From assembly GCA_030539165.1 (NCBI GenBank), contig JAUNSO010000001.1:1-64000 (forward strand): a DNA stretch of 64,000 bases. The letters run 5' to 3'. Each line of letters begins with the position of its first letter. The first letter of the stretch is position 1. The stretch comes from a bacterium. Its GTDB lineage: Bacteria; Bacillota; Clostridia; Lachnospirales; Lachnospiraceae. The translations under genes and the position numbers were made by a program. The notes beneath the pieces are model-generated. The model worked only from the letters and a program-made list of their open reading frames with translations, did not search any database and had not been told where the DNA came from. Below, in pieces: positions 42,857-46,791 of the stretch.

Positions 42857-43354
42857 TTAGCGCTCGATCCCCAGAGCACTTAATATTGTTTTTTGCTTGA
42901 CTTCCATGACACTTGCATCTTCTTCTGAAATATGGTCATATCCAAGTAAGTGTAACACACTATGAGCAATAAGGAAAGAAAATTCTCGCAATACAGAGTG
43001 TCCGTATTCCTCAGCCTGTGACAAAACTCTGTCTGCACAGAGTACAATATCGCCAAGAAGAAGCTCGCCGGATTCAGGGTGAAAGCAGTCCCCAAAATCA
43101 CTCTCCAGTACAGAAAAATCAGAGGGCTTCGGATAATCGATCATCGGAAATGACAAAACATCTGTTACGCGATCGATTTCTCTGTGTTCACGGTTGATTT
43201 CCCGAATACGCTCTGCTGTTGTAACTGTCAGGCTGATTTCTGCCTCATAAGGGCACTTTTCGTAATCCAGTACAGCTTCTGCTACGATTTGAAACTGTTT
43301 TTCATGATCAAACCCAAAGTCTGCGTCTGTCTCATTTTCAACGTAAAAAGTCAT
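42857..43354 (-). CDS. ybeY: YbeY, rRNA maturation endoribonuclease
   Basis: YbeY acts in 16S rRNA 3'-end maturation and ribosome quality control. The 165-residue protein has the zinc motif HSVLHLLGYDH (His131, His135, His141). It overlaps the upstream PgpH-like gene by 17 bases, the classical phoH-pgpH-ybeY order. GGAGG precedes the ATG by nine bases. Confidence 0.95.
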   Translation of the reverse strand: MTFYVENETDADFGFDHEKQFQIVAEAVLDYEKCPYEAEISLTVTTAERIREINREHREIDRVTDVLSFPMIDYPKPSDFSVLESDFGDCFHPESGELLLGDIVLCADRVLSQAEEYGHSVLREFSFLIAHSVLHLLGYDHISEEDASVMEVKQKTILSALGIER

Positions 43355-44561
43355 AGTACAGTGCCTCCGATTTATAGTATTCCTTCATTTTATGAAGATC
43401 CTTTAAAGAGATCCCGGAATCCTGCAGGATGCCGCTTTCATATTTCTTTTTAAAAACCGCCTCAATGATTTTATCATAATCCAGTTTTTGCTCCGGATTT
43501 TTATCGTACATGTAAAGAATGGATGTTACAATTGCATCGGATAGCATGACAATGACTGCCTCTACCGTTTTAGGAGTTTCATATCGTCCTGTATATTCAT
43601 TGATCAGCTGGAGCAACGGCTCCGGAAATTGATGTTCTTTTCCTATCTCCAGGCTTTTTGCTACATGGCTTTTTGCCCTTAATATGCCTATTTTATGATA
43701 ATAACCGCCCGCCTTTGCCAATAAACAGTCAGCCTCCAGCAAACGAGCAACTCTGTCGCTCAGATAGGCTGTATGTACGGCATTATAATAATCACTTTTT
43801 GCTTTTTCCTTCAGTTCCAGTAATAATGGATACTCAGGATTCATGATTTCCTGATATTTACGTACATATTTATGAATCATTTTTTTGTCTGCAAGATATA
43901 GAATCAGATAGAGCGCAGTCAGGTTTATGACCAGACCGCCCGCAAACCATATTCCTTCCTTTAGAATATCAAATATATTCAGAAAATGAAAAGCCATATA
44001 TAAAACGATATATTGTCCGGACATGATCCCTATGAACTGCCATATATGAAAAGTTTTTTCTGCACTTCTGACAAGACAGCATCCGATTATACCGGATAAA
44101 AAGAGATTCATAAACGATAATCCAAAATCCAGCCCGCATAACAAAGAAGAAACAAGTATGAAATGCGTATACAGCGCGATTCCGATTTCAAAATTTGAGA
44201 ACAAAGCAAATAAAACAGCTGCAGACATATATGGAAAAAGATAAATACATTCATTTGGAAGAAAGCCTGAGGATAATATGTTTAGTACAGCCATCAGAAT
44301 CAGACAGACAATATAGGAAATCATTAATCGTGCAGGATGCTCCGCATTATCAGCCAGATAATCCTTTCTGATATCAGACTGCAGCATAACAATCACAGCG
44401 ATTCCCATACTGAACATAACGGTTATGATATTTCGAAGAATCGTTGCTGCATCAAATTCCAGAAATAATGAACCAAATCCGATCACAGCTGTTGTAATGA
44501 AAAAAATGCATGTATACATTTTGACCCTGACAGGGTCTAGCTTTAATTTTATTTCATTCAT
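43338..44561 (-). CDS. PgpH-like 7TM protein with degenerate HD domain, N-terminal domain absent
   Basis: It occupies the conserved place of pgpH (yqfF) between phoH and ybeY. PgpH is a membrane c-di-AMP phosphodiesterase of about 700 residues with an extracellular 7TMR-HDED domain, seven membrane segments and an HD domain. This protein has only 407 residues: membrane segments at about 15-225, then an HD-like region at about 255-370. His263 and Asp342 remain, but the HD signature is His289-Lys290 (YYHKIGIL), and the later paired histidines are missing. Phosphodiesterase activity is unlikely. Only 14 bases separate it from phoH, so the missing domain is not hidden nearby. Confidence 0.8.
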   Translation of the reverse strand: MNEIKLKLDPVRVKMYTCIFFITTAVIGFGSLFLEFDAATILRNIITVMFSMGIAVIVMLQSDIRKDYLADNAEHPARLMISYIVCLILMAVLNILSSGFLPNECIYLFPYMSAAVLFALFSNFEIGIALYTHFILVSSLLCGLDFGLSFMNLFLSGIIGCCLVRSAEKTFHIWQFIGIMSGQYIVLYMAFHFLNIFDILKEGIWFAGGLVINLTALYLILYLADKKMIHKYVRKYQEIMNPEYPLLLELKEKAKSDYYNAVHTAYLSDRVARLLEADCLLAKAGGYYHKIGILRAKSHVAKSLEIGKEHQFPEPLLQLINEYTGRYETPKTVEAVIVMLSDAIVTSILYMYDKNPEQKLDYDKIIEAVFKKKYESGILQDSGISLKDLHKMKEYYKSEALYYDFLR

Positions 44562-44575
44562 ATACCTACTCCGGT

Positions 44576-45583
44576 CTATTTTTTCTTTTGTGTTTTATAA
44601 CTGCTTCTTCTCTTATCTTTTCCTGATTCTTTGCTTTCATAGGTTTCATAAGCCTTGACGATTTTTTGTACGAGAGGATGTCTTACAACATCTTTACTGG
44701 TCAGATAACAGAAACCGATATCATCCAGCTTTGACAGGACACGGATAGCGATGTCAAGTCCTGATGTTGCCCCAGGTGCCAGATCCTTCTGCGTCATATC
44801 TCCGGTGATGATTACTTTTGATCCGAAACCGATACGTGTCAAAAACATCTTCATTTGTGCCGGTGTCGTATTCTGGGCTTCATCCAGAATAATAAACGCG
44901 TTATCAAGTGTACGGCCTCTCATATAGGCAAGAGGTGCAACCTCTATCAGTCCTTTTTCCATATTCTTTTGATAGCTTTCCACTCCCATGATCTGGTATA
45001 AAGCATCATATAAGGGACGCAGATACGGATCGATCTTACTTTGCAGATCGCCCGGCAAAAAACCAAGCTTTTCACCGGCCTCTATCGCCGGACGGGTCAA
45101 TATAATCCTGCTGACTTCATCGTTTTTAAAAGCTGTAATACCCATTGCCATTGCCAGATAAGTCTTACCGGTTCCAGCAGGACCGATTCCAAATACAATC
45201 ATTTTCTCCTTGATCGCATCAATGTACTGCTTTTGTCCAAGCGTTTTCGGCTTAATCGGCTTTCCGTTTGTCGTATGGCAGATCAGCTCTTTATCAATAT
45301 CCAATACAGCAGAATCATTTTCTTCCATACTCATGGCGATGGTATAGTCAACATTCTGTTCATGTATGATATTTCCTCTGTCAGATAGCTGCTGCAGCTG
45401 ATTCAGTACGGATGCTGCTTTCTGAACCGAGGCTTCAGCCCCCACAATTTTGATTTTGCCTTCCCGCTCTATGACAGAGACCTGAAAGGCACGCTCAATT
45501 TTTTTTGCATTGGCATCCATCTGGCCAAATACATTGCCCATATCCTTTGACGGAATATCTATATAGACTTCAGATATACTCAC
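44576..45583 (-). CDS. phoH: PhoH-family ATPase (PhoL/YbeZ type)
   Basis: A 335-residue P-loop protein with an N-terminal KH-like part, Walker A GPAGTGKTYLA and Walker B FIILDEAQNTTP. It works with YbeY in RNA metabolism. The start is GTG at 45583, seven bases after GGAGG, and forms a GTGA overlap with the yqfD stop; the longer frame from 45664 lies within yqfD. The C-terminal tail is Lys-rich. Confidence 0.94.
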   Translation of the reverse strand: MSISEVYIDIPSKDMGNVFGQMDANAKKIERAFQVSVIEREGKIKIVGAEASVQKAASVLNQLQQLSDRGNIIHEQNVDYTIAMSMEENDSAVLDIDKELICHTTNGKPIKPKTLGQKQYIDAIKEKMIVFGIGPAGTGKTYLAMAMGITAFKNDEVSRIILTRPAIEAGEKLGFLPGDLQSKIDPYLRPLYDALYQIMGVESYQKNMEKGLIEVAPLAYMRGRTLDNAFIILDEAQNTTPAQMKMFLTRIGFGSKVIITGDMTQKDLAPGATSGLDIAIRVLSKLDDIGFCYLTSKDVVRHPLVQKIVKAYETYESKESGKDKRRSSYKTQKKK

Positions 45584-46791
45584 AAGGTATCCTCCATAAC
45601 AATTGAAATCTTCTGCTCTTTTCCTGCATCCTCTATGACTTGAATATCTCCGGATGCAGTACACAGATCACTCGTAGATTCTATTTTAACACTATTTGTG
45701 ATTATTTGTACCCCTTTTTCCATTAAATTCATACAATATTTCTCTAATTTTTTGGAAGCAAGTTCATATGCTGCTTCCTTTGTATACTTTCTGCTGGCTT
45801 CATAATATTCTCTGTTTCGCGTATATCCGATAAAAACAGGCAGTCTGACGTCCTTCACGAATGGTATCTGATACTCTGTCAGATAGCTGTCATATAACTG
45901 AAAAGAATGATTACACTGTGGAAGGTAAATGATTTCTTCATGATTGGCCAAGTACAAGCTGCTTCTCTCTCTGCCTGTATATTCCCGTTTCATAATTCGT
46001 AGCGGAAACGTATCCTGATAATGATACACCGTTTTCAGTTTGATATCTGCATCCGCAGCAACATAACGATAATCCGTAATTGTTCCGCTGTCATCCTTGA
46101 TTGGAATACTCCCTGATACCAGAACAGTCCCCTTCGTAACGCCCATATCCTTTGTACACAAAGGGACTCCGCTTCGGGTGATGATTTCTACAATGGTTCC
46201 TGTCTTTTCGGAAACAAGATCACATGCCGTTTGTTCCGAGGTGTCCGGGACAGGCATAGTATTCTCTTTGATCTGTATTTTGAGACCGGTACCCTGGATT
46301 TTCGCAGAAGCCCATGTGATATCATCAAACCTCTGACGAAGCCCTTTCTCGATCTGCTCACAATCAATTTTTCCCTTCAGAATACCAGGTACAATTTCAA
46401 TCTCACGCAAATAATCATTGATCACATCATCTGTTCTGTATAAGTTTCCATCAATCCTGATCTCCCACAAAAACAAAGACATCAACCATAAGAAAACAGC
46501 ACAAAATAAAATACCTGCAGGAAAAACCTTTCGCTTCTGATACCGGTGTACCAGAAAAGGAAAACCATATTTTTTTAAAATGGTGACTTTTGTTCTTGTT
46601 TTTTTTAAGATTGGCCGGAGACACAGAAAATCCCGAATACTGATGCACATAATATAATCATCATTTTGGCGCTGTACCTGCCACAGCAGAATATCACGAT
46701 TTCCGCAAAGATTCATAAACCGTTCAGGTGAAAATCCCGAAATCCTGATCTTGACATAACCACGGCATCGTTTTATGAAATTTACAAACAA
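45580..46791 (-). CDS. yqfD: YqfD, sporulation membrane protein
   Basis: A 403-residue protein with one membrane segment at about residues 90-109, flanked by an N-terminal cytoplasmic part and a larger extracytoplasmic domain with TWASAKIQGTGLKIQI and the VPLCTKDMGVTKGTVLVSG stretch. YqfD is made in the mother cell under SigE in Bacillus and is needed for spore formation. The start is TTG (46789-46791), seven bases after AGGAGG. It forms an operon with yqfC and phoH. Confidence 0.92.
   Translation of the reverse strand: MFVNFIKRCRGYVKIRISGFSPERFMNLCGNRDILLWQVQRQNDDYIMCISIRDFLCLRPILKKTRTKVTILKKYGFPFLVHRYQKRKVFPAGILFCAVFLWLMSLFLWEIRIDGNLYRTDDVINDYLREIEIVPGILKGKIDCEQIEKGLRQRFDDITWASAKIQGTGLKIQIKENTMPVPDTSEQTACDLVSEKTGTIVEIITRSGVPLCTKDMGVTKGTVLVSGSIPIKDDSGTITDYRYVAADADIKLKTVYHYQDTFPLRIMKREYTGRERSSLYLANHEEIIYLPQCNHSFQLYDSYLTEYQIPFVKDVRLPVFIGYTRNREYYEASRKYTKEAAYELASKKLEKYCMNLMEKGVQIITNSVKIESTSDLCTASGDIQVIEDAGKEQKISIVMEDTL

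Follow-up and report, generated by a model that had tools for sequence, protein, structure and literature searches.

The window, a stretch of 64,000 nucleotides from a Lachnospiraceae genome (GCA_030539165.1, contig JAUNSO010000001.1), carries three adjacent genes on its minus strand: phoH (44576..45664, read as a GTG-start ORF, with a start near 45589 also possible), a gene here called X (43338..44561) and ybeY (42857..43354). The frame of X is intact, with 407 codons plus a stop. Its ATG lies 14 nt past the phoH stop and is preceded at 7 nt by the ribosome-binding site GGAG (44569..44572), in line with the earlier note's description of an intact 407-codon frame with a good ribosome-binding site, and its 3' end overlaps the start of ybeY by 17 nt (43338..43354). 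The slot between phoH and ybeY is common to full, reduced and extracellular domain (ECD)-less forms of PgpH, and on the evidence of gene tree and synteny X is a PgpH ortholog.

X reads as a reduced, inactivated PgpH of 407 aa, with eight predicted transmembrane helices and a trimmed HD domain. The membrane part (residues 10-228, 43878..44534) consists of the former N-terminal anchor helix and a seven-helix bundle, with a Pfam match to 7TM-7TMR_HD (PF07698) at residues 42-220 that scores 31.9 bits against a cut-off of 29.4. The HD domain (residues 245-407, 43341..43829) matches Pfam HD (PF01966) at 23.3 bits, just above the cut-off. At the site of the approximately 260-300 residue ECD of full PgpH there is a loop of four residues (34-37, 44451..44462), and the 7TMR-HDED extracellular domain has no Pfam match in X nor anywhere in the window genome. 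With the phoH-X-ybeY order, this confirms the earlier claim that the ECD is absent at the conserved pgpH position.

The helix count comes from an AlphaFold model of X, built with 62 sequences (mean pLDDT 89.5, pTM 0.70), in which the old N-terminal anchor is joined by seven further membrane helices. In the model, eight helices instead of seven would fit an excision of the ECD from between the N-terminal anchor and the seven-helix bundle, with the 4-residue loop left behind. The predicted HD fold superposes on Listeria PgpH (4S1C) with a Z of 19.1 and an rmsd of 2.0 Å over 159 residues. This is the best match among solved structures, and the next family reaches a Z of only 12.5.

Active site of the trimmed HD domain

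In Listeria PgpH, two metals are bound via H514, H543, D544, H580, H604, H605 and D648, the reaction is Mn-dependent, and the metals and the seven ligands together hold the c-di-AMP phosphates (PMC8177086). The initial portion of the HD domain in X can be aligned gap-free with 4S1B and with 16 PgpHs that belong to other families in the order, which allows these positions to be mapped. In the alignment, H514 is replaced by N260 (43782..43784), D544 by K290, and H604/H605 by Y323/T324, while H543 is kept as H289 and D648 as D342 (43536..43538). H580 aligns to H299, but with uncertainty, as a deletion lies just before this residue. The seven-ligand set H...HD...H...HH...D of PgpH is not matched by X. 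The replaced His-Asp pair itself (codons 289-290, 43692..43697) reads His-Lys within a YYHKIG motif, encoded by CAT AAA at 43697-43692. Both the His-Lys motif and the loss of further metal ligands, as reported in the earlier note, are thereby upheld.

The same note had listed His263 and Asp342 as retained. This stands for Asp342, which occupies the D648 ligand position, but not for His263 (43773..43775), which has no canonical ligand position although it is invariant in 88 relatives. A role for His263 as a metal ligand is ruled out by the ungapped alignment to 4S1B, in which the ligand position corresponds to Asn260; His263 sits three residues, or one helical turn, beyond it. Relative to the 16 PgpHs, two blocks are missing from the HD domain of X, one of approximately 28 aa after HD(I/V)G and one of approximately 30 aa after the HHG motif. 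Two-metal hydrolysis needs residues that X has lost, so non-hydrolysis is its likely state.

Conservation and selection among relatives

A scan of genome contigs with a single sequence found no relative. A scan of 84,980 species genomes with a profile from the subclade alignment recovered 379 relatives of the window's subclade. Most of the records are labelled Lachnospiraceae; one (L134) is Kineothrix sp. MSJ-39, and the cultured Kineothrix alysoides (L199) has a K/R-type member. Among the 80 relatives kept, phoH lies upstream and the frame is intact in all 80, and ybeY is also seen in 79, the contig of the remaining one (L192) being too short. In the window's subclade (n=88), residue 290 is Arg in 61 sequences, Lys in 24, another residue in 3 and Asp in none. 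His263 is invariant (88/88), Asp342 is found in 86/88, and neither histidine of motif IV remains. Residues invariant in the subclade are also present in the window gene. The C-terminal LYYDFLR is conserved in the subclade as well (43338-44561, L134-L213), which the 17 nt shared with the beginning of ybeY explain. In a second subclade the motif is YYR(L/I)G in 20/20 sequences, so that Tyr-Arg replaces His-Asp, and the motif-I His and motif-V Asp are each present in 20/20. The gene is found there in 25/26 species of one genus, with an HD dN/dS of 0.03-0.15. A replacement that recurs in scores of independent assemblies rules out artefact or sequencing error as its cause.

Selection was measured with pairwise Nei-Gojobori dN/dS on 26 independent pairs with usable dS, values at high dS being rough. 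Median values were 0.026 (HD part), 0.100 (membrane part), 0.031 (phoH) and 0.078 (ybeY); these figures describe the genes of relatives and not the window gene, whose nearest relatives are approximately 33% identical. The low HD dN/dS, the conservation of the altered motif and the intact frames together indicate that the relatives' genes are not decaying, and relaxed selection is ruled out for them by dN/dS. Comparison of the locus and of HD selection, which the earlier note had called for, thus finds strong purifying selection on the HD domains of relatives. Its view that X is no decaying gene but a pseudoenzyme under maintenance is strongly supported by the conserved altered motif, the HD dN/dS near 0.03 and the intact frames of nearly all relatives. 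Two irregular copies were seen. In a MAG that is 74% complete (G001), X (L004) looks frameshifted near its start, which could be true decay or an assembly error, and genome G295 has a second, broken copy of X (L239) with two internal stops.

Distribution and evolutionary series

The phoH-ybeY junction was read in 107 Lachnospiraceae genomes, nearly all from different genera, although the genomes were not chosen strictly at random. Of the 107, 32 have a reduced 7TM+HD protein (approximately 360-470 codons) between the two genes, X is absent from the junction in 75, and full PgpH is found there in none. Thus roughly a third of Lachnospiraceae genera keep X and the rest have lost it. In one genus (L074), an aroB-like gene (3-dehydroquinate synthase) takes the place of X between phoH and ybeY. 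Mapped on a phoH+ybeY tree, the presence and absence of X require approximately 15 changes, and at least 7 when strong branches alone are counted. Combined with a gene tree that shows a single origin, these changes indicate one ancestral form and repeated loss. No association with sporulation was found, SpoIVA being present in approximately 23/33 X-bearing genera versus 124/180 overall (hand count).

An order-wide comparison of 116 genomes places these proteins in a series. PgpH in other families is full-length, at approximately 690-800 codons, or is missing. Three related families (L017, L019, L022, L214-L224) carry ECD-less PgpHs, 457-523 codons in length, whose HD domain is complete; some of these have HQ for HH at motif IV. 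A tree built on the part common to all forms joins the ECD-less and reduced proteins in one group (support 100), inside which the reduced Lachnospiraceae proteins are a single clade (support 100) on a long stem of 1.17 changes per column. Horizontal gain of X is not supported, as the slot is ancestral and the reduced clade nests within the PgpH tree of the order. The simplest reading of tree and distribution would be a single loss of the ECD, after which the HD domain was trimmed and inactivated in the Lachnospiraceae ancestor, followed by repeated gene loss. The succession from full PgpH through ECD-less PgpH and trimmed pseudo-PgpH to gene loss traces at one locus, in a stepwise way that is rarely seen, how an enzyme became a pseudoenzyme.

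Within the reduced proteins, clade A mostly has HE at the HD motif, with HD in two genera and HQ and SK in one each. Most members of clade B have Lys, Arg or His at the position of the HD aspartate. The branch with HD and HE types may still bind metal. Individual reduced proteins that keep the His-Asp pair are L006 and L008, and several others keep His-Glu.

Turnover of c-di-AMP in the family was surveyed in 180 Lachnospiraceae genomes. GdpP (PF24898) is above the cut-off in 177 of them, including the window genome, and the PgpH extracellular domain is above it in none. The window genome has one diadenylate cyclase (DAC) and a GdpP with GGDEF_GdpP, DHH and DHHA1 domains, of which DHH and DHHA1 look intact. 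The earlier note had asked for another phosphodiesterase elsewhere, and this GdpP answers that point; no full PgpH is present elsewhere in the genome, and selection on the relatives' genes is not relaxed, so that at the level of sequence nothing that the note named as refuting its view has turned up. Breakdown of c-di-AMP in Lachnospiraceae therefore appears, as far as gene content goes, to be done by GdpP alone. The evolutionary series likewise suggests that this large family, whose members are dominant gut commensals, depends on GdpP for that step.

Function of X

The PgpH ortholog X, its ECD lost and its HD domain trimmed and inactivated, has probably become a non-hydrolysing membrane protein that is kept by selection. 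As such it would no longer hydrolyse c-di-AMP by the known two-metal mechanism. Lys/Arg290, His263 and Asp342 might instead be linked in a network without metal, which would stabilise the fold and create a basic pocket. The protein would then act at the membrane as a regulatory or binding unit. It could sense an anionic ligand, for example a nucleotide, or associate with a protein partner, and could signal through the membrane bundle. Membrane regulation via ligand or partner binding is the most likely function judging from sequence. A more specific and tentative proposal is that a cyclic-dinucleotide phosphodiesterase gave rise to a metal-free receptor, in which Arg/Lys, His263 and Asp342 form a pocket for an anionic nucleotide or metabolite, with transmembrane signalling in hundreds of Lachnospiraceae species. 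Against the preferred reading of X as a selected, non-hydrolysing membrane protein are its many losses in Lachnospiraceae, so that its role is dispensable in many lineages, and the clade-A members that retain H-HE...H...D or even HD (L006, L008), with which part of the wider family could still bind metal.

The alternatives, two of which (a membrane scaffold and a c-di-AMP sensor) the earlier note had tentatively put forward, differ in what the altered HD domain would do. A scaffold, in which the HD surface binds a partner such as PhoH, YbeY, CdaA or GdpP and the pocket is structural only, would account for the constant gene order with phoH and ybeY, the tight spacing and overlap, and the strong constraint across the entire HD part. 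However, phoH is joined straight to ybeY without X in many genera, and the basic residues specifically fixed in the old site point to a pocket, so that this reading is a minority one, although it deserves weight. Somewhat less likely, possible but not favoured, is a c-di-AMP receptor that binds without cutting and signals via the membrane bundle or to GdpP/CdaA. X descends from a c-di-AMP enzyme and its genome has both c-di-AMP synthesis and GdpP, but most of the ligands that hold the phosphates in PgpH are lost in X (PMC8177086) and both deleted blocks lie inside the HD domain. GdpP is also equally present in genera without X, which shows that X is not its obligate partner.

Retained catalysis is unlikely. 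An altered HD site with one metal or none would hydrolyse c-di-AMP or another phosphoester, and the HD domain is indeed the most constrained part of the protein. Several clade-A genera keep the motif-I His, HE or HD, one motif-IV His and the motif-V Asp, a set near the mononuclear H...HD...D of other HD phosphatases (PMC8177086). In the window's subclade, however, the metal-binding Asp is Arg or Lys in 85/88 sequences, where a basic residue should repel metal, and neither motif-IV histidine survives; the second subclade has lost the His of the HD motif too (Tyr-Arg). Least probable by far is a decaying relic, or a mere translational bridge from phoH to ybeY. The repeated loss of X, the 17-nt overlap and the apparent frameshift in one MAG copy (L004) are what such a relic might leave, but the HD dN/dS of 0.026 in independent pairs, the intact frames in all 80 kept relatives and the distance of the new invariant residues from the overlap all argue otherwise.

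Compared with known systems, X is closest to PgpH (Listeria Lmo1466, Bacillus subtilis YqfF; HD structure 4S1B/4S1C), with which it shares the phoH-ybeY locus in the order, the 7TM-7TMR_HD region, the HD fold and orthology. Unlike these proteins, X is without an ECD, two blocks are missing from its HD domain, at least 4 of the 7 metal ligands are replaced and a basic residue stands at the HD aspartate. The ECD-less PgpHs of the three sister families share its locus and its lack of an ECD and are nearest to it in the gene tree, but their 457-523 aa include an entire HD domain, in which HDIGK/HDVGK and almost all of the ligands are kept. X is best classed as a pseudoenzyme derived from PgpH, not as PgpH itself, since two of the features that define PgpH, the ECD and the seven ligands, are absent from it. 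It would otherwise be annotated as a plain HD/HDIG protein and mistaken for an active c-di-AMP phosphodiesterase. A literature search found no reduced PgpH in Lachnospiraceae, although most subscription papers were beyond its reach, which makes this weak evidence of novelty.

There are precedents for retention of such domains. RelA has a divergent HD domain without ppGpp hydrolysis (PMC8177086), and so resembles X in keeping an HD domain after hydrolysis was lost; it differs in family and domain context, X having no second catalytic domain. The degenerate GGDEF of GdpP offers an example of a degenerate nucleotide domain retained in a regulatory role (PMC5575661). GdpP shares the c-di-AMP pathway, but it retains an active DHH/DHHA1 domain and its fold is unrelated. 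X raises a testable question, namely the role of a dead HD domain that selection guards as tightly as PhoH. Among the reduced proteins, the one in genome G011 (L009) has a long acidic repeat before its HD domain, on a contig that ends before the membrane part.
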